Below, piece by piece: positions 7,976-17,023 of a stretch of DNA of 36,661 nucleotides. The DNA is taken from IMG/VR virus record IMGVR_UViG_3300039018_000128, positions 1 through 36,661 of that record; one strand, given 5' to 3'. Every line of letters starts with the position of its first letter. Position 1 is the first letter of the stretch. The position numbers and the translations under genes were made by a program. Below the pieces are notes generated by a model, which did not search any database, had not been told where the DNA came from, and saw only the letters and a program-made list of their open reading frames with translations. This DNA comes from a virus.

Positions 7976-8359
7976 ATGGAAGTTTGGAAACTTGTGCCGG
8001 GGTACGACGGCAAATATGAAGTCAGCGACCAAGGACAAATTCGCTCATATAAGCGCCACCCTGAAGGCCGCATTTTGCGCCCAGGTCGTATGCCCAGTGG
8101 TCATTTGAGTGTGGCGCTAGGCCGTAAAAATAGCCAGTGCGTTCACAAGCTAGTGTTGTTGGCGTTTGTTGGCGCGGCTCCAGACAAGCATGAATGCTTG
8201 CACATGAACGGAAACCCCGCCGATAACCGGCTGTCTAATTTGCGGTGGGGCACGCGTAGTGAAAATATGAAAGACGCTTACGCGCATGGGGCTAGAGATC
8301 GCGAAAAGAATCGTGCAGCGTTGGATAAAGGCCGTGCTACTCGGTGGGGCCACGCATGA
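7976..8359 (+). CDS. HNH homing endonuclease with NUMOD4 domain
   Basis: 127 aa from ATG 7976 (AAGGAG upstream). Residues 1-27 are a NUMOD4 motif (EVWKLVPGYDGKYEVSDQGQ), and 56-92 an HNH_3 domain with His57 (VHKLVLLAFVG), His76 and Asn84/Asn88 (CLHMNGNPADNRLSNLRWG). Such enzymes cut a site in a relative lacking the insertion and spread by repair. It stands alone between intact neighbours, not in an intron, and its TGA overlaps the DNA polymerase ATG (8356-8359), so insertion kept or created translational coupling. The hairpin just upstream probably controls it. Confidence 0.9.
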   Translation: MEVWKLVPGYDGKYEVSDQGQIRSYKRHPEGRILRPGRMPSGHLSVALGRKNSQCVHKLVLLAFVGAAPDKHECLHMNGNPADNRLSNLRWGTRSENMKDAYAHGARDREKNRAALDKGRATRWGHA

Positions 8360-10248
8360 TTTTGTATTGCGATTTTGAAACGAGGTCACATTGCGACCTA
8401 AAAGTCGCGGGCGTTTACAACTACGCCCAGCACGGCACGACCGAGGTGCTGTGTATGTCTTACGCATTTGATGATGAAGACGTACAGACCTGGTTGCCCG
8501 ACCAGCCTTTCCCACAAGAGGTCGCAGACCACAAGGGTTTGATATACGCCCACAACGCCGCCTTTGAGCGCTTAATTTTTTGGTACGTCTTGCAGATCAA
8601 TTTTGACCTAACTCAGTTTTACTGCACCGCAGCGCAGGCCCGCGCCAATTGCGCGCCTGGCTCCCTTGAGGACGTTGGCCGCTTCGCTGGCGCGTCCATG
8701 AAGAAAGACCATCGTGGTGCCCAGCTAATCCGCAAGATGAGCGTGCCGCCTTACGAGGAATCGCCCGAGTTGACCGCCGAGATGGTGGCCTACTGTGAGC
8801 AGGACGTGCGGGCCATGCGCGCTATCAGCAAGGCCATGCGGCCACTGTCAGCCCAAGAGTTGCAAGACTACCACGTCAACGAGCGTATCAACGACCGTGG
8901 CGTGCTGGTCGATGTGCCCCTGTGCCATGCTGCGGTCAAGTACGCCAGCGCTGAGTTGGCCGAGATTCAAGAGATCGTGGCCGAAGTGACCGAGGGCGAG
9001 ATCACTAGCGTGCGCTCTCCCAAGATGCGCGATTGGGTCTATGCCCGCGTGGATGATGAGGCCCGCAAGCTGATGCAAAAAGACGGCAAGGTCAGCATTG
9101 ATAAGACCGTGCGGTTCAACTTACTCAACTGTGATGGAGTGCCACCCGATGTTCAAGAAGTCATCCAATGCGCCGACGACCTTTGGGCGTCCTCGGTTGC
9201 GAAGTTCAGCCGCCTTGCACAGTTATCAGATGAAGAAGATGGCCGAGTCCGAGGCGCTTTTGTGTTTGCAGGCGGCAGCGCTACTGGACGCGCTTCGTCT
9301 TATGGAGCCCAAGTCCATAACTTCACCCGCAAGTGCGCCCAAGCGCCTGAAGAAGTCCGCACAGCAATGGTCAGAGGCCACGCCATCGTCCCCAAATACG
9401 GCAAGCGAGTCACCGACGTCCTCAAAGGAATGCTCCGACCGGCCCTTGTACCTAGTAAGGGTAAACACTTAGTCGTTGCCGATTGGTCGGCCATCGAAGC
9501 TAGGGTAAACCCTTGGTTGTCCGGCAGGGGCGACGAGAAGCTGGCGATCTTTGCGTCTGGCGAAGACGTGTACAAGGTCAACGCCTCTGCGACGTTTGGC
9601 GTGAGTGTGAGCCAGGTCAACAAAGACCAGCGCCAAATTGGCAAGGTGCAGGAGTTAGCCTGCGGCTTTGCCGGTGGCGTCGGTGCCTTTGCAGCGATGG
9701 GCCGCGTGTACGGCGTGGCTTTGCCTGAGTCAGACGCACGGCGCATGGTTGATGCTTGGCGTAGGGCAAACCCTTGGTCTGTTCCCTACTGGCAAGACCT
9801 AGAATCAGCATACACCCGAGCGATGCGAAACAAAGGCAAAGAATTCAGCGCCGGACGGGTGACTTACTTGTTCGACGGCATGCACCTATGGTATGTGCTG
9901 CCCTCTGGACGCATCCTGTGCTACCCATACGCCCGATTGGAATCCGAAGGTGTGACTTACGCCAAAGCTGCTTGGAAACCCGCCGCTGATGCCAAGGAGT
10001 GGCCGCGCGCGCGCCTGTGGAAGGGCTTGGCCTGCGAGAACATCACCCAGGCCGTGGCTAACGACTTGCTGCGCCATTCGCTGCGCCAGCTTGATGACGT
10101 GGTGCTGCACGTCCACGATGAAATTGTGATCGAGACCGCAACGCCCGACCCCGAGGCGCTGCGCTTGGTCATGTGTACCCCGCCCGATTGGGCTAAGGGT
10201 TTACCCCTAGACGCTGAAGTCTCAATTATGGAGCGATACGGAAAATGA
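8356..10248 (+). CDS. polA-like: Family A DNA polymerase with 3'-5' exonuclease
   Basis: 630 aa. Exonuclease motif I YCDFETRS (Asp6, Glu8), exo II AHNAAFERL (about 66-72), exo III YCEQDVRA near 150. Polymerase motif A DWSAIEAR (Asp376), motif B QIGKVQELACGFAGG (about 428-442), motif C VHDE (586-589, Asp588). All catalytic acids are present, so both activities are expected. It lacks the 5'-3' nuclease domain of cellular Pol I, as is normal for phage replicases. It overlaps the HNH gene before and the primase/helicase after (ATGA-type, 10245). Main replicative polymerase of the phage. Confidence 0.95.
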   Translation: MILYCDFETRSHCDLKVAGVYNYAQHGTTEVLCMSYAFDDEDVQTWLPDQPFPQEVADHKGLIYAHNAAFERLIFWYVLQINFDLTQFYCTAAQARANCAPGSLEDVGRFAGASMKKDHRGAQLIRKMSVPPYEESPELTAEMVAYCEQDVRAMRAISKAMRPLSAQELQDYHVNERINDRGVLVDVPLCHAAVKYASAELAEIQEIVAEVTEGEITSVRSPKMRDWVYARVDDEARKLMQKDGKVSIDKTVRFNLLNCDGVPPDVQEVIQCADDLWASSVAKFSRLAQLSDEEDGRVRGAFVFAGGSATGRASSYGAQVHNFTRKCAQAPEEVRTAMVRGHAIVPKYGKRVTDVLKGMLRPALVPSKGKHLVVADWSAIEARVNPWLSGRGDEKLAIFASGEDVYKVNASATFGVSVSQVNKDQRQIGKVQELACGFAGGVGAFAAMGRVYGVALPESDARRMVDAWRRANPWSVPYWQDLESAYTRAMRNKGKEFSAGRVTYLFDGMHLWYVLPSGRILCYPYARLESEGVTYAKAAWKPAADAKEWPRARLWKGLACENITQAVANDLLRHSLRQLDDVVLHVHDEIVIETATPDPEALRLVMCTPPDWAKGLPLDAEVSIMERYGK

Positions 10249-12527
10249 ATTTCTTAACTTATCTCGAAAACATTGCCCCCGAGGGCGAGGTTATTTTGTT
10301 TGTACGGCAAAAGCCGATTTTGAAAGATGGCGAAGTGCAACACCATGCCGATGGCGCAATCAGATGCGCTTGGCCTGCGTTCCTGCCCAAGAAGTGGAAG
10401 CCCGACCAAGCGTGGTACTGCAACACCGGCTGCTTCATCATCGACCGATTCGACGAGGGCAAACCCGCAGCCAAGGCCGATGCCTGTGAGCGTGTGGCGT
10501 TCCTCGTGCTGGACGACGTGGGCACCAAGGCCAAGGTGCCGCCCATCAACCCGACTTGGATCATGGAGACCAGCCCCAATAATTTCCAGTACGGCTACAC
10601 CTTCGCGCTGGACGATCAGCCATTCAAGGGCGAGTTTAGCGCGGCCATTGTCGCCATTGCAGAAGCAGGCTACACCGACGGCGGGGCCATCAACCCCGTG
10701 CGTAACTTCAGACTGCCTGGTTCGATCAATCTCAAGCCTGGGCGTGACCGCTTTGAATCGCGTTTGGTCGAGTTTCACCCCGAACGTGAGTTTGACTTGG
10801 GGGCCATCTGCACCGCTTTGGGCGTGGTGCCCAACCCAGCCGATACCGCCACCGTGCGCCCGATCCGGCTCACCGACGACGGCGGCGATGACGTGCTGGC
10901 GTGGGCAGCAGCGCGTGGTGACTTGCTGGAAAAAGGCAACAGCAGCGGCTGGTGGGGCATCGTTTGCCCGAACAGTGCCGAGCATAGCGACGGCAACCCG
11001 ATGGGCCGCTATCACCCCGTCAACCGCGCCTACTGCTGCCTGCATGAGCATTGCGCCCATCTGGACAGCGCAGCCTACCTTGCGTGGGTGGAAGAGCAGG
11101 GTGGCCCCAAGCGTTCGCATGGCCTGCGTGATGAGTTGCTGGCCGCAGTGATGGAGAACACCTTGGCCAAGCTGACCCCGACAGTCGAGTACCCCGACGA
11201 CGCGGCGACAGTCATCGCCGAGGTGGAGCATCGCGAGTTGGGCCGTGTGGAGATGTCCGGCTGGTTCGAGCGCTTCGCGTACATACAGAACGACGATGCA
11301 TACTTTGACATGGAAGACCGGCGCGAAGTGATGCGTAAGACCTTCAACGCTCTGTTCCGGCATATCAACTGCAAGTCCCGCCACGGCAAGCACCCCAAGA
11401 TCGAGGCGTCCAATTCATTTGACGAGTACCGCCAAGACAAGGGAGCGCGCGCCTTGGTCGGTATCACCTACGCAGCAGGCGAGTCGGTGCTGGTCGCCCG
11501 TGAGGGGCTGGTCTACGGCAACCGCTGGCGCGATGCCCGCCCCGAGCCGGTGGCCGCAGACGTGTCCGCGTGGCTGCGCCATGTCGAGCGCATGGTGCCG
11601 ATTGAATTCGAGCGCGAGCATTTGCTTAACGCCTTGGCCCATAAAGTGCAGTTTCCCAGCCACAAGATCAACCATGCGATCCTGCTTGGCGGCAATCACG
11701 GGAGCGGCAAAGACACCCTGTTCGCCCCGTTCTTTTGGGCCATTGGCGGCAAGGCCAAGGCCAATTGCTCCCTGGTCAAGAATGAAGACCTTAATTCGCA
11801 GTGGGGCTATGCGCTTGAATGTGAAGTGATGGAGATAGCAGAACTGCGCCAAGCAGAGGCCAAAGACCGGCGCGCGCTAGAGAACACCCTTAAGCCCATC
11901 ATCGCAGCGCCGCCCGAGTTGCTGATGGTCAACCGCAAGGGCTTGCACCCCTACTATGCTTTGAACCGCGTGTTCGTGGTGGCGTTCTCCAATGAGCGCG
12001 TGGCGATCAGTCTGCCCAGCGAAGACCGGCGCTGGTTTGTCCTATGGTCAGAAGCAGGCAAGCTCCCCGAAGCAGAAGCGGTTAGCCTTTGGAATTGGTA
12101 CGAACACCGGGGCGGCTTTGCAGCAGTGGCCGCGTACCTACACTCGCGTGACGTGTCCGCGTGGAACCCTAACGCAGCGCCCCCGATGACAGAGGCCAAG
12201 GCCATCATGGTCGAGCATGGCATGAGCGGCGCGGAATCGTTCTTGGTCAACCTGATCAAGGCCCGCCAGCGTGCATTCTCTAGCGGCGTGGTTGGCGCGC
12301 CCTTTTACGCTATCTGCGATGAGTTGCAGCTATACGCGCCAGCAGGCATCAAGATCGTCCCCCCGGCACTTATGCACGCGCTGAAAGAAGCCGGATGGGT
12401 TGACATGGGTCGCTTGGCGTCCCGTGAGTACCAGACCAAGAAACACATCTTTTGCGCGCCTGAGTTAGCCAAAAGCAACAAGTCAGACTTGCGCAGGGCA
12501 ATAGAAAAAGCCCCCGAAGGGGCTTAG
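10245..12527 (+). CDS. Primase/SF3 helicase (prim-pol N-terminus, DUF5906-like helicase)
   Basis: 760 aa. The N-terminal ~200 residues look like an archaeo-eukaryotic primase-polymerase: FLVLDD (Asp90, Asp91) for metal binding, METSPNNFQYGYTF, and NFRLPGSINLKPG near 154-166. A zinc-binding stretch follows near 240-275 (CPNSAEH ... CCLHEHC). The C-terminal half is a superfamily 3 helicase: Walker A GGNHGSGKDT (Lys489), Walker B ECEVMEIAELRQAE, and a sensor VFVVAFSNE. The order primase, zinc motif, helicase suggests one protein primes and unwinds at the origin. The last codons lie within the terminator hairpin of the opposing operon. Confidence 0.85.
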   Translation: MNFLTYLENIAPEGEVILFVRQKPILKDGEVQHHADGAIRCAWPAFLPKKWKPDQAWYCNTGCFIIDRFDEGKPAAKADACERVAFLVLDDVGTKAKVPPINPTWIMETSPNNFQYGYTFALDDQPFKGEFSAAIVAIAEAGYTDGGAINPVRNFRLPGSINLKPGRDRFESRLVEFHPEREFDLGAICTALGVVPNPADTATVRPIRLTDDGGDDVLAWAAARGDLLEKGNSSGWWGIVCPNSAEHSDGNPMGRYHPVNRAYCCLHEHCAHLDSAAYLAWVEEQGGPKRSHGLRDELLAAVMENTLAKLTPTVEYPDDAATVIAEVEHRELGRVEMSGWFERFAYIQNDDAYFDMEDRREVMRKTFNALFRHINCKSRHGKHPKIEASNSFDEYRQDKGARALVGITYAAGESVLVAREGLVYGNRWRDARPEPVAADVSAWLRHVERMVPIEFEREHLLNALAHKVQFPSHKINHAILLGGNHGSGKDTLFAPFFWAIGGKAKANCSLVKNEDLNSQWGYALECEVMEIAELRQAEAKDRRALENTLKPIIAAPPELLMVNRKGLHPYYALNRVFVVAFSNERVAISLPSEDRRWFVLWSEAGKLPEAEAVSLWNWYEHRGGFAAVAAYLHSRDVSAWNPNAAPPMTEAKAIMVEHGMSGAESFLVNLIKARQRAFSSGVVGAPFYAICDELQLYAPAGIKIVPPALMHALKEAGWVDMGRLASREYQTKKHIFCAPELAKSNKSDLRRAIEKAPEGA
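12504..12525 (-). terminator. Rho-independent terminator of the leftward small-gene operon
   Basis: On the minus strand AAGCCCC-TTCG-GGGGCTT is followed by TTT(T)C, a perfect 7-bp stem with a UUCG loop and a U-run. It ends the operon 14209-12524 and sits inside the last codons of the primase/helicase gene on the other strand. On the plus strand no U-run follows, so it would act mainly leftward. Confidence 0.8.
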
Positions 12528-12586: not shown

Positions 12587-12771
12587 TCGAGCGCGCGCAG
12601 GGCGTCCGCTCGAGTCTTTTCATTGTCATCGTCCAGCAGCGCGCGCAGCACGTCCTCTAGATGGTTTATCCGCAGGCGGCTGTCGTATAACTCCACGTTC
12701 GTCTCGTCGATCTGCGCGTGATAATAGCGGGTTGTTGCCGACAGTACGGCCAGCATATCGTTTTCAATCAT
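12577..12771 (-). CDS. Small acidic helical protein
   Basis: 64 aa from ATG 12771, with TTGGAG 8 bases upstream and an ATGA overlap with the previous stop. Two helices are likely (MLAVLSATTRYYHAQIDETN and RINHLEDVLRALLDDDNEKT), with a net acidic charge. No family was recognised. Confidence 0.65.
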   Translation of the reverse strand: MIENDMLAVLSATTRYYHAQIDETNVELYDSRLRINHLEDVLRALLDDDNEKTRADALRALECS

Positions 12772-12875
12772 AGGTACTCCAATAGGATAGCGGCCAGGGC
12801 CAGGCCAATGGTCACGGCCAGCAGCGCGCCAGCCCAAGGGCGCGCCACTGGTTCGGGTTTGTAATGTTGTCTCAT
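12768..12875 (-). CDS. 35-aa single-pass membrane protein
   Basis: From ATG 12875 the frame gives MRQHYKPEPVARP, then a continuous hydrophobic segment (WAGALLAVTIGLALAAILLE) and YL. A strong GGAGG lies 8 bases upstream, the ATG overlaps the previous stop (GCATGA) and its own stop overlaps the next ATG. The ribosome site, membrane segment and coupling make it likely to be real despite its size. Function unknown; small membrane peptides of this kind can act on host membrane proteins or on superinfection. Confidence 0.6.
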   Translation of the reverse strand: MRQHYKPEPVARPWAGALLAVTIGLALAAILLEYL

Positions 12876-13198
12876 GCTTCGACCTCCATAGAATCGACGC
12901 CCTGGGGCACGCTCACGCGGTCGCTGAGTCCCTCATAGAATCCGGCCAGGTTCGCGTCCCCATAAGGCGCAACGCCCGTCTTAAAATTGCGCCGGTTCGA
13001 ATTCAGCGTGTAGTACTGACTCACGTACTCCGCAGTGCTCATATCGGCGCCCATGGCCGGATACAGGCGCCCGATGCCGCCCTTGGGCCGCACCGGCTTG
13101 TGCTTGCCGGTGATCTTACCGGCCAAGGCTTGCACGGCCAGCACGCGATCCAGTGACGCCAGCGTGTACGTGGTGGTGTTAATTTTCAGGGTATGCAT
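12872..13198 (-). CDS. Hypothetical protein
   Basis: 108 aa from ATG 13198, preceded by TTGGAG. Begins MHTLKINTTTYTLASLDRVL and has a central basic stretch (GKITGKHKPVRPKGGIGRLY) followed by a Tyr/Asn-rich part (STAEYVSQYYTLNSNRRNF). No recognised domain or membrane segment. It overlaps the gene before by 20 bases and the 35-aa gene after by 4. It may be a small DNA-binding or host-takeover protein; there is no direct evidence for either. Confidence 0.7.
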   Translation of the reverse strand: MHTLKINTTTYTLASLDRVLAVQALAGKITGKHKPVRPKGGIGRLYPAMGADMSTAEYVSQYYTLNSNRRNFKTGVAPYGDANLAGFYEGLSDRVSVPQGVDSMEVEA

Positions 13199-13352
13199 TT
13201 TTTAGCTCCAATTTAATCGCTCGTTCAATGTTTCGTAGGTTGTACCCGTCGGCCAATTTATCGGCCAGCATGGCCGCGTCAATGGATTCGGGCGTGGGCA
13301 GTGGCGCCGGTGGCGCATATGGCCGCAGTATGGCCTCGAATAGGGGATGCAT
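13179..13352 (-). CDS. 57-aa helical hypothetical protein
   Basis: From ATG 13352 the frame reads MHPLFEAILRPYAPPAPLPT, then a helical part (SIDAAMLADKLADGYNLRNI; ERAIKLELKNAYPEN) and stops at 13179. The start is 3 bases past the stop of the 193-aa gene, and the end overlaps the next gene by 20 bases; the ribosome site of that gene lies inside this frame. A longer overlapping frame (13202-13537) is a shadow of the 193-aa gene. No function known. Confidence 0.6.
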   Translation of the reverse strand: MHPLFEAILRPYAPPAPLPTPESIDAAMLADKLADGYNLRNIERAIKLELKNAYPEN

Positions 13353-14209: not shown

Positions 14210-14262
14210 TGTGTGCCTTTTTACTGTAGTTAAGTGGTAAGAGCTTTGGGCCCTTGGTTGAT

Positions 14263-14290
14263 AGTGTAAGGGAATTTGTTGCACTGTCAA
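14263..14290 (-). promoter_or_regulatory. Leftward sigma-70-type promoter
   Basis: On the minus strand TTGACA (14290-14285, a perfect -35 box), a 16-base spacer, then TACACT (14268-14263, 4 of 6 for -10). Transcription would start near 14256 and read 14209 to 12524. It is the only strong promoter-like pair seen in front of this operon. Confidence 0.55.
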
Positions 14291-14292
14291 GG

Positions 14293-14315
14293 GTGTCAAT
14301 TTACAGAATTGACAC
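14293..14315. promoter_or_regulatory. 9-bp perfect dyad next to the leftward promoter
   Basis: GTGTCAATT (14293-14301) and AATTGACAC (14307-14315) with a 5-base spacer. It lies directly upstream of the -35 box, which itself repeats the TTGACA half-site, giving three copies of the same half-site. Likely an operator for a repressor or activator of the operon at 14209-12524. Confidence 0.5.
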
Positions 14316-14329
14316 TGCGGGCTTAAATT

Positions 14330-14707
14330 GTTGGCGTTGTTGGCGGTTTGGTAGGCGCTGGGTTGGCTATGGTGTTTTTATGCGGTTCTCCAATGGGGGA
14401 GATTAGTTGTTGGCTATGTTGGCTATTGTTTTTATCTGATGTTATCTAAACTATATATTTCATAATGTGAGATATACAAACCGTATAGTGAAATATGCAA
14501 TATGGGGTAAGACTAACTGCAATCGGCGTTGGCATAGCCAACATAGCCAACAGCACATAAATGCCGCAAAAACGACTGTAAACATAACAAAAACGACACT
14601 TGTTGGCTATGTTGGCTATTGAAAATAGATAGCCAACATAACAATATGCTTAAAAAATAAGCAAAAACACCCTAAATCTTCATATTTGATGACCTACGGT
14701 AGCCAAC
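14330..14707. repeat. GTTGGCTAT 9-bp repeat cluster, candidate replication origin
   Basis: GTTGGCTAT occurs at 14362, 14409, 14418, 14602 and 14611, and inverted (ATAGCCAAC) at 14534, 14543 and 14629; variants are at 14330, 14339 and 14699. Several are tandem pairs with a 9-bp period, and 14608-14619/14629-14640 make a 12-bp inverted repeat. The pairs flank an AT-rich stretch (about 14427-14520). No convincing gene is present. Direct and inverted iterons around an AT-rich segment are typical of origins bound by an initiator; operators or partition sites are alternatives. Confidence 0.55.
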
Positions 14708-14776
14708 ACTGCACACAATCGCTGCATTTTGCACAATGCACCATGGCCGCACTGTTAACGCAAGCCTTGCGATCCG

Positions 14777-14808
14777 GTTGGCACTGCCAACACTGCCAAC
14801 GCTGCCAG
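14777..14808. repeat. Short tandem repeats CACTGCCAA
   Basis: A GTTGGC-ACT-GCCAAC palindrome (14777-14791) runs into 9-bp tandem units CACTGCCAA (14782, 14791) and CGCTGCCAG (14800). The units share the GCCAA core and the 9-bp period of the cluster to the left, so the same protein may bind. Confidence 0.5.
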
Positions 14809-14817
14809 GCACAAACC

Positions 14818-14900
14818 CTTGCCAATCTGCTAATGACTTGCTTGCCATTTTGACTAGCATTACCCTTGCCATTTTGACCAGGGGTTGCTTGCCATTTTGC
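14818..14900. repeat. CTTGCCATTTTG array with 23-24-bp period
   Basis: CTTGCCATTTTG begins at 14841, 14865 and 14888; a diverged copy (CTTGCCAATCTGC) begins at 14818. Spacings are 23, 24 and 23 bases, a little over two helical turns, so a protein could bind all copies on nearly one face. It lies about 200 bases upstream of terS. It may be a terminase small subunit recognition (pac-like) array or a second set of origin iterons. Confidence 0.5.
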
Positions 14901-14914
14901 GTAGGGTTTTTGCC

Positions 14915-14985
14915 GAGGGGGGAGGGGTAGGGCCGAGCGATTGGGCCAACGTAAACGGAGGGGCCACAAACAAAATTTTTTTTTT
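14915..14985. other. G-rich run and T10 run in the non-coding region
   Basis: GGGGGGAGGGGTAGGG lies at 14917-14932 and could form a two- or three-layer G-quadruplex with a nearby GGG. An unbroken T10 run lies at 14976-14985. Together with the repeats on both sides they fill the ~880-base gap between 14209 and 15094, in which no protein gene was found. Confidence 0.5.
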
Positions 14986-15006
14986 AATGTAAACTACACG
15001 TCACAG

Positions 15007-15081
15007 GCCAACACGCCTGGAGATTGCCAAGTATCTAGGCGCGTACAGTAAGTCCTTGCAACAGTCTCCAGCCGTGTTGGC
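15007..15081. repeat. 17-bp inverted repeat just upstream of terS
   Basis: GCCAACACGCCTGGAGA (15007-15023) is repeated inverted at 15065-15081 with one central mismatch and a 41-base interior. The right arm ends 2 bases before AGGAG, the ribosome site of terS. The arms include the GCCAAC core of the repeat cluster. It may be a packaging site, a TerS autoregulation operator or a transcript structure affecting terS translation. Confidence 0.6.
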
Positions 15082-15093
15082 ATAGGAGAACAA

Positions 15094-15525
15094 ATGTTCA
15101 AGTCACTGCCGCTCACTGTCCGACACGTCCAAGCGACTGAATCGCGCTTGCAGGCGATATACGACGCTGCCAAGCTAGGGCTCAAAGGCGACACGCTGGC
15201 GCTGGCCTCGGGGATGCGGCCTGAAGAGTACCGGCACCTATGCCAATTTGACCCACTGGCCGAGATGGCCGCAATCAAGGGCAAAGCTGACGGCGAGCGC
15301 GAGATGGCAGACATCCTGCACAAAGCTGCCCGCGAGGGCGATGCCAAGGCAGCGCTTGAGATTCTCAAACATCAGCACGGCTGGGTCGCCAAGCAGTCCA
15401 TCACGGTGGACATCGACCAGCGCATATCCATCACGCAGGCACTGCAAGAAGCAGAGATGCGTGTCGTAGATGTGGTTGCCAATGAGTTAAACACAGACAA
15501 TGCAGTCCACCAGATACAGCGCTGA
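15094..15525 (+). CDS. terS: Terminase small subunit
   Basis: 143 aa, AGGAG at 15084. The N-terminal half is an HTH-like helical domain (SRLQAIYDAAKLGLKGDTLA, then LASGMRPEEYRHL), followed by a helical oligomerisation part (KADGEREMADILHKAAREGD; AKAALEILKHQHGW), the usual layout of small terminases that bind the packaging site and feed DNA to TerL. The 3' end overlaps terL by 26 bases. The upstream repeats and inverted repeat are plausible targets. Confidence 0.8.
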   Translation: MFKSLPLTVRHVQATESRLQAIYDAAKLGLKGDTLALASGMRPEEYRHLCQFDPLAEMAAIKGKADGEREMADILHKAAREGDAKAALEILKHQHGWVAKQSITVDIDQRISITQALQEAEMRVVDVVANELNTDNAVHQIQR

Positions 15526-17023
15526 AGACGAACAGGAATTGATGGCGCGTCTGTGGACGCCGCGCATCAAGGACAACCCGCTCAACTTTGTAATGCTCAC
15601 GTTCCCGTGGGGCGTCAAGGGCACGCCGCTGGAGAACTTCAAAGGGCCGCGCAAGTGGCAGCGCGAGGTGCTGCAAGATATTGCCAAGCATATTGAAGCG
15701 AACAAAGGGCTACTAGACTACAACGTACTGCAAGCGGCCATCTCGTCTGGGCGCGGTATTGGCAAATCGGCTCTGGTCAGTTGGATCACGATCTGGATGC
15801 TGGCGACCCGTATCGGCTCGACGACCATCATCTCGGCCAACAGTGAGTCCCAACTCAGAAGTATCACCTGGGCCGAGATTACCAAGTGGCTGGCGATGGC
15901 AATCAACAGCCACTGGTTTGAGGTGAGCGCCACGCGAGTGATGCCCGCCAAGTGGCTGACCGAACTGGTCGAGCGGGACTTGAAGAAGGGCACCAGGTAC
16001 TGGGGCGTCGAAGGGCGGCTGTGGTCAGCGGAGAACCCCGACGCCTACGCGGGTGTGCATAACTACGACGGCGTGCTGGTGGTGTTTGACGAGGCGTCCG
16101 GTATCGACGACACGATCTGGGCGGTGACTGCTGGCTTCTTTACGGAGAACACGCCCAACCGTTTCTGGCTGGCTTTCTCCAACCCGCGCCGCAACACGGG
16201 GTACTTCTACGAGGCGTTCAACTCCAAGCGGGCGTTTTGGAAAACCAAGGTGGTGGACGCGCGCACGGTCGAGGGTACGGACAAACAGGTCTACGAGCGG
16301 ATCATTCAGGAGTACGGGCCAGACTCCTCACAGTCGCACGTCGAGGTCTACGGGATGTTCCCAAGCGCGGGGGATGACCAGTTCATCGGTTCGGACATAG
16401 TGGACGAGGCCATGAAACGGGAAAAGTACAAAGACTTGTCCGCGCCCATCGTCATCGGCGTCGATCCGGCGCGCTACGGCGCGGACGCGACGGTTATCGC
16501 GGTGCGCCAGGGGCGGGATATTATTAACATAACGCGGCATCGGGGCGATGACACAATGACGGTCGTGGGGTATGTGATCGACGCAATTGAAGAGTACAAA
16601 CCGACTTTGGTGGTGATCGACGAGGGCGGGTTGGGGGCTGGGATTGTGGACAGGCTCAAGGAGCAGCGGTACAAGATTAAAGGTGTGAACTTTGGAAATA
16701 AGTCCAAAAACCCGATAATGTACGGAAATATGCGCGCGCAGATGTGGGGTGAGATGCGGGAGTGGTTGAAATCTGCTAGTATCCCGACCGACAGGTTCTT
16801 GAAGACGGATTTAATTTCGCCTAAAATGAAGCCTGATTCACGTGGAACAATCTTCTTGGAGAGCAAGAAAGAAATGAAAGCACGGGGCTTAGCATCACCA
16901 GACGCAGCGGACGCTATATGCGTGACGTTTGCTTTTCCTGTGGCTCACCGAGAGTATACTGAGCCCACCCGCCGCTATAACGCTCAAGACGGCGCAATGC
17001 ACACATCATGGATGGGCTCATGA
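15500..17023 (+). CDS. terL: Terminase large subunit
   Basis: 507 aa, close to P22 gp2 (about 499). ATPase domain: SSGRGIGKSA with Walker A Lys89; Walker B VVFDEAS with Asp197 and catalytic Glu198; a coupling-type FSNPRRNTG segment near 230. RNase H-like nuclease: Asp322 (IGVDPARYGADAT), Asp374 (VVIDEGG) and Asp468/Asp471 (SPDAADA). It powers DNA entry through the portal (17987) and cuts the genome length. Overlaps terS at the 5' end and the DUF6321-like gene at the 3' end. Confidence 0.95.
   Translation: MQSTRYSAEDEQELMARLWTPRIKDNPLNFVMLTFPWGVKGTPLENFKGPRKWQREVLQDIAKHIEANKGLLDYNVLQAAISSGRGIGKSALVSWITIWMLATRIGSTTIISANSESQLRSITWAEITKWLAMAINSHWFEVSATRVMPAKWLTELVERDLKKGTRYWGVEGRLWSAENPDAYAGVHNYDGVLVVFDEASGIDDTIWAVTAGFFTENTPNRFWLAFSNPRRNTGYFYEAFNSKRAFWKTKVVDARTVEGTDKQVYERIIQEYGPDSSQSHVEVYGMFPSAGDDQFIGSDIVDEAMKREKYKDLSAPIVIGVDPARYGADATVIAVRQGRDIINITRHRGDDTMTVVGYVIDAIEEYKPTLVVIDEGGLGAGIVDRLKEQRYKIKGVNFGNKSKNPIMYGNMRAQMWGEMREWLKSASIPTDRFLKTDLISPKMKPDSRGTIFLESKKEMKARGLASPDAADAICVTFAFPVAHREYTEPTRRYNAQDGAMHTSWMGS

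Follow-up and report, generated by a model that had tools for sequence, protein, structure and literature searches.

The DNA analysed here (the window, taken as a whole) is a single virus record of 36,661 bases, and it raises the question of what role is played by a gene-free interval in which one short word, GTTGGC/GCCAAC, recurs at high density. An earlier note had read 14321-15081, with 18 copies of this word, as an origin-like iteron region. The interval is indeed noncoding, but its true extent is about 14213 to 15093.

Layout of the repeat array

An exact count of the 761 bp returned the same 18 copies, at 14330-15081. The 0.4 copies previously expected by chance, with equal base use, is about half of the real value: the frequency in the remaining genome predicts 0.85 (Poisson, 3.6e-18). 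In 1000 dinucleotide-shuffled versions of the region the mean was 0.9 and the maximum 6 copies, and the whole window holds 58, compared with a shuffle mean of 35 and maximum of 50. A similar density of the motif elsewhere in the genome would have refuted the origin reading; the genome count revealed none, and no other 6-mer exceeds 11 copies in any other 761-bp interval of the genome (top: CGGCCA near 12.7 kb). The features of the region are as follows.

14330, 14339, 14362, 14409, 14418, 14528 (+): exact copies of GTTGGC/GCCAAC
14537, 14546 (-); 14602, 14611 (+); 14632, 14702 (-): exact copies
14777 (+); 14786, 14795, 14945, 15007 (-); 15076 (+): exact copies
14330..14426 (+): left iteron array, 5 GTTGGC units including the tandem TGTTGGCTATGTTGGCTA; same position in relatives
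14427..14520: AT-rich stretch between the arrays, 71% AT, overlapping the genome's second AT-richest 90 bp
14528..14707: right iteron arrays, units at 14528+, 14537-, 14546-, 14602+, 14611+, 14632-, 14702-
14777..14800: outer iteron cluster GTTGGCACTGCCAACACTGCCAAC, partly conserved in relatives
14914..14993: conserved noncoding block beside terS, G-rich, GGGCC..GGGGCC, then a T tract
15007..15081 (+): imperfect hairpin of 75 nt immediately 5' of terS, holding two of the 18 copies

About 15 of the copies (14330-14800) form the array proper, and for these the description as one iteron region holds; it does not hold for the copies at 14945, in the conserved terS-proximal block, and at 15007 and 15076, in the arms of the hairpin. 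The 9-bp unit TGTTGGCTA has 8 exact copies in the genome, all at 14408-14708. As the earlier note had described, the units stand in tandem pairs in both orientations, and the step is exactly 9 bp whether a pair is direct or inverted. The 19-bp tandem pair of the left array recurs, inverted, across the AT-rich stretch, the right arrays holding exact copies of it at 14534-14552 (inverted) and 14601-14619 (direct). The AT-rich stretch, which does have arrays on either side, is the likely melting site; its sequence is not conserved, several alleles being found among relatives. GC skew, also suggested earlier as a check, shows no change at the array region and hence lends no support to an origin there, and no Rfam family matches in the array region.

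The runner-up word CGGCCA reaches up to 11 copies in 761 bp at 12600-13300, downstream of the primase gene, as it also does in many close relatives.

Covariation of the repeat word with the primase-helicase wing

The genes that matter for the interpretation of the array are these.

8344..10248 (+): family A DNA polymerase (PolA), proposed primer extender
10245..12527 (+): primase-SF3 helicase, 760 aa, proposed initiator
its parts: weak RepB_primase-like N part; C/H-rich cluster at residues 241-270; C-terminal winged helix at 660-755
its helicase part: DUF5906/SF3, Walker A at residues 482-491
12408..12440 (+): wing codons, residues 722-732, including the covarying A725 and Q730
15094..15525 (+): terS, probably the small terminase subunit, assigned by its place before terL, with no family match

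In the primase-helicase, DUF5906 scores above the cut-off and RepB_primase only below it, and the helicase part matches the NrS-1 primase-polymerase (PDB 6k9e/6k9c) with an E-value of 3e-10. A comparison with plasmid relatives gave weak matches only, mostly to the helicase part. The array is 1.8-2.3 kb away from this gene, with small leftward ORFs intervening; it is located between these ORFs and terS, which is the first gene past it. P22-like portal, coat and terminase genes are present in the window, and a DUF2800 nuclease is encoded by the phage. Adjoining the portal gene, 20182-20544 matches PHROG 858, annotated as a starvation-inducible transcriptional regulator.

Scans with an array 15-mer and with the primase yielded about 100 loci with terS. 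In the single 15-mer scan of viral contigs, lone matches were near chance, and all multi-copy clusters with identifiable neighbouring genes belonged to this phage group. Nearly all of the roughly 100 loci carry a 9-bp-unit array in the noncoding stretch just 5' of terS. The word varies from phage to phage (TGTTGGC, TGTCGGC, TGTGGGC/T, TGTAGGC/T, TGTGGAC) and is often homogeneous inside one phage; the 63-65% group has TTGTCCACA arrays. MW202483, a distant named relative, shows TGTTGGTAG-type units around an AT-rich stretch. BIP-1 was dismissed as a relative, having neither a primase homologue nor a matching array. Two of the contigs, L274 and L278 (93% and 64% primase identity), fall in one Rhodoferax bin, which weakly suggests Comamonadaceae as hosts. 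Second arrays also occur: some of the 70-73% group have one with AGTTAGTG, and in L181, L170 and L215 of that group AAGTTAGTG / CACTAACTT units stand upstream of terS beside the TGTGGAC array. MW202483 has a second array of TGTTTACATAAACA units near its gene for a lone DnaA domain.

Across about 150 related phages, a change of repeat word goes along with changes in a few residues of the primase-helicase, which lie at the tip of its predicted DNA-binding domain. Over all loci, A or G at residue 725 goes with TGTTGG, S with TGTCGG, H with TGTGGG, Y with TGTAGG, and K725 together with D730 with TGTGGA, although the last pair accompanies TGTGGG in 6 of 47 phages. Among 1031 variable columns in five proteins (primase, polymerase, two terminase subunits and SNF2 helicase), residue 725 ranks first and residue 730 third. 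When the tree is computed without the C-terminal domain, on residues 1-650 alone, residue 725 is again the best column, 9 of its 13 changes falling on branches where the word changes (runner-up, 7 of 22). In a larger set of 96 phages the best column is residue 730, for which 9 of 16 changes coincide with the word, against 6 of 13 for residue 725 (P 0.004 in a length-weighted simulation).

Sister phages illustrate the same association, since their primase bodies are 90-94% identical and yet their words differ. L081 (TGTTGGC) and L190 (TGTGGAC) share 94.4% identity in the primase body, over the part present in L081, and L361/L356 and L110/L190 are similar pairs. Within these pairs identity is 98-100% over residues 641-720, a stretch that takes in the helices with which the C-terminal domain begins, and the C-terminal differences lie mainly from residue 721 on, at 725, 728, 730 and 740-755. 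We cannot exclude that the gene end and the array might have been exchanged together, which would still couple both. A first comparison, restricted to close relatives, had placed the lowest p-values in the C-terminal part of the primase, with none in terS or terL. In that comparison of T against G/A words, residues 672 and 743-746 had come up as possible determinants; they were discarded and their signal was not used, because the window and other phages are exceptions. The small ORFs that some phages have and others lack between primase and terS were likewise rejected as a cause of the word, as none fits.

The association is looser around the window itself. Phages whose protein is 88-98% identical to that of the window carry T, G and A words with an identical wing; in this group, then, there is no strict reading of base 4. 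L134, for instance, is identical to the window over residues 656-760 and yet lacks TGTTGGC. The uniformity of the arrays in this group may stem from repeat turnover.

As word and wing residues covary, the repeats are largely predictable from the protein. The residue-to-word rule was fixed before 209 new loci were inspected; removal of near-duplicates left 120 loci, of which the rule covered 52, 36 of them with a scorable array. The rule was correct in 35 of these 36 (TGTGGA 28/28, TGTGGG 3/3, TGTTGG 4/5), and the sole wrong prediction concerns a member of the group 88-98% identical to the window protein. In the other 16 loci the available DNA shows no TGTNGR array, and several of them hold other repeats, such as TGGACAA with K725/D730 in L445 and L457. 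Most of the 28 correct predictions for K725/D730 come from related clades; six of the phages (L430, L444, L449, L450, L456 and L458) came from a search with a distant query, and for four of these six no phage of the earlier set exceeds 75% identity. The 28 are therefore neither independent events nor a single one.

AlphaFold predicts the C-terminal 121 residues with a mean pLDDT of 84.7 (about 85-95 in the domain). The order of elements, helix, strand, helix, helix, two strands, helix, is that of a winged helix in which residues 725-732 make up the wing between the two strands. The helicase part was not confidently predicted in the full-length model. Comparison of the C-terminal model with solved structures returned generic winged helices with Z of 4-6, including the tail of the NrS-1 polymerase; the P4 origin-binding domain is absent among the structure matches listed (Foldseek/VIA). 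RFX1 is known for a wing that reads DNA. In a related kind of viral primase-helicase, the tail has been noted to look like both RFX1 and the P4 origin-binding domain (PMC10516667), and by analogy we infer that the wing probably reads bases in an RFX1-like manner.

A proposed origin and its alternatives

We consider it likely that 14330-14800 is an iteron replication origin and that the primase-SF3 helicase of the phage itself binds it with the C-terminal winged helix. The earlier proposal of an iteron origin is strengthened by the finding that the position of the array is conserved and its sequence is not, and that the word covaries with the wing of the protein encoded from 10245. The covariation makes a contact between the C-terminal domain and the units likely, direct binding itself being an inference; that the region acts as an origin is likewise inferred, on the grounds of its layout and by comparison with SaPI/PICI and P4 (PMC6092414, PMC7581432, PMC4234260). 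In the proposed mechanism, the primase-helicase would bind the 9-bp units as iterons and assemble on both sides of 14427-14520. Melting of this stretch and priming are also inferred: the protein would open the AT-rich DNA, load as a ring helicase and prime for the phage PolA.

The place of the array could also suggest packaging, that is, a pac site for the TerS encoded just downstream. In P22-like headful phages the pac site is near terS; in relatives the array lies directly 5' of terS, with a well conserved block between the two. TerS is nonetheless 89-99% identical between phages of different words, its best column ranks only fifth, below primase 725 and 730, despite adjoining the array, and no terS column is associated with the word in the close group (best p 0.1). 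The conserved block moreover resembles a terminase site more than the variable array does, and a pac function of the array seems to us unlikely. An array between divergent transcription units would also suit a phage regulator of transcription, acting on the leftward genes to one side and on the late operon to the other, and a promoter-like site lies at 14290-14263 on the minus strand. Such sites are not above chance, however, no ORF family between primase and terS tracks the word, and the covarying protein is the primase-helicase; we find a regulatory array improbable.

That host DnaA binds the array appears very unlikely for the window, where TAGCCAACA is no DnaA box, TTATNCACA occurs once, at 16054, outside the region and at chance level, and the word tracks a residue of a phage protein; no DnaA domain was found in the window or in 38 relatives. 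The points in favour come from elsewhere in the group: the TGTGGAC type corresponds to TTGTCCACA, which we take to be like the DnaA box of high-GC bacteria and which forms the arrays of the 63-65% group, and MW202483 encodes in the same segment, between primase and terS, a lone DnaA C-terminal domain (L201 31423-31719; PF08299, 64 bits). As a general reader of the word this domain was rejected, being found in MW202483 only. The units might instead be template recognition sites of the primase part, like 5'-TTTGGTTA-3' of NrS-1 PrimPol, and not double-strand sites of the C-terminal domain. To this we give hardly any credence: GTTGGCTA and TTTGGTTA agree at 6/8 bases and NrSPol is related in the helicase part (PMC8718748), but it is the C-terminal domain, and not the primase part, that carries the covarying residues, and exact TTTGGTTA has 2 copies, at chance level and outside the region.

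Building on an origin bound by the primase-helicase, we tentatively suggest a natural recognition code in which wing residues 725, 728 and 730 specify the word. The pair would switch repeatedly between close relatives with the rest of the protein little changed, perhaps blocking use of the initiator by co-infecting relatives or satellites. We regard this as a serious possibility that falls short of a conclusion.

Known systems and the flanking noncoding DNA

The closest layout is that of the PICI origins, in which two iteron sets flank an AT-rich region (PMC6092414), and of SaPI Rep, which recognises iterons by its C-terminal domain (PMC7581432). The window has both the combination of a primase and a D5/SF3-type helicase in one replication module, as in SaPI/PICI Pri-Rep, and the two iteron sets around an AT-rich stretch. 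For C-terminal recognition, it offers strong covariation and no binding data. In SaPI/PICI the origin is immediately 3' of the initiator gene, whereas the array in the window lies about 2 kb away, beside terS; these elements are helper-dependent satellites, whereas the window represents a complete P22-like podovirus with portal, coat and terminase genes, in which the word changes between close relatives together with the wing residues. The PICI-type origin layout would thus extend to complete phages, giving an origin and a candidate initiator to freshwater P22-like podoviruses, a large group of which few have been cultured. Sister phages differing in wing and word provide a ready test of a joint change in initiator and origin specificity.

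P4 alpha joins primase and SF3 helicase in one protein, as here, and binds the repeats of its origin with a C-terminal winged helix (PMC4234260), a fold that is only predicted for the window protein. Its primase is of the bacterial (Toprim) type (PMC4234260), P4 has a second replication site, crr, and no sequence relation to it was found here. Stem-loops have been suggested as the assembly sites of initiators that combine an archaeo-eukaryotic primase with an SF3 helicase and a winged helix (PMC4234260); the array data argue against this, at least for this phage group. NrS-1 shares the primase-SF3-tail layout and a homologous SF3 helicase region but has only two copies of its 8-nt site (PMC7102993) and no other polymerase, unlike the window with its iteron array and separate PolA. 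In SCCmec Cch2, a D5-type helicase with an A-family polymerase partner, the isolated C-terminal domain binds short direct repeats (PMC7581432); it differs in having three iterons, a separate priming polymerase and repeats that adjoin the helicase gene. In geminiviruses, according to references cited in PMC12548392, iterons differ between close relatives and match Rep, and specificity residues have been proposed by comparison; Rep is, however, an unrelated rolling-circle initiator of plant viruses.

Between the array and terS, the 14914-14993 block is the best conserved noncoding block of the region (80-90% in relatives). It is not an iteron, although it contains one GTTGGC, and we consider it a candidate terminase site or late promoter. 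The hairpin at 15007-15081 has an RNA fold z of -4.2 and no Rfam match; it takes a different form in L131 and is missing from most relatives shown. Between the array and the conserved block, 14815-14904 holds two 43-bp direct repeats, 77% identical and of the CTTGCCATTTTGACTAG type, and similar repeats are present in close relatives.
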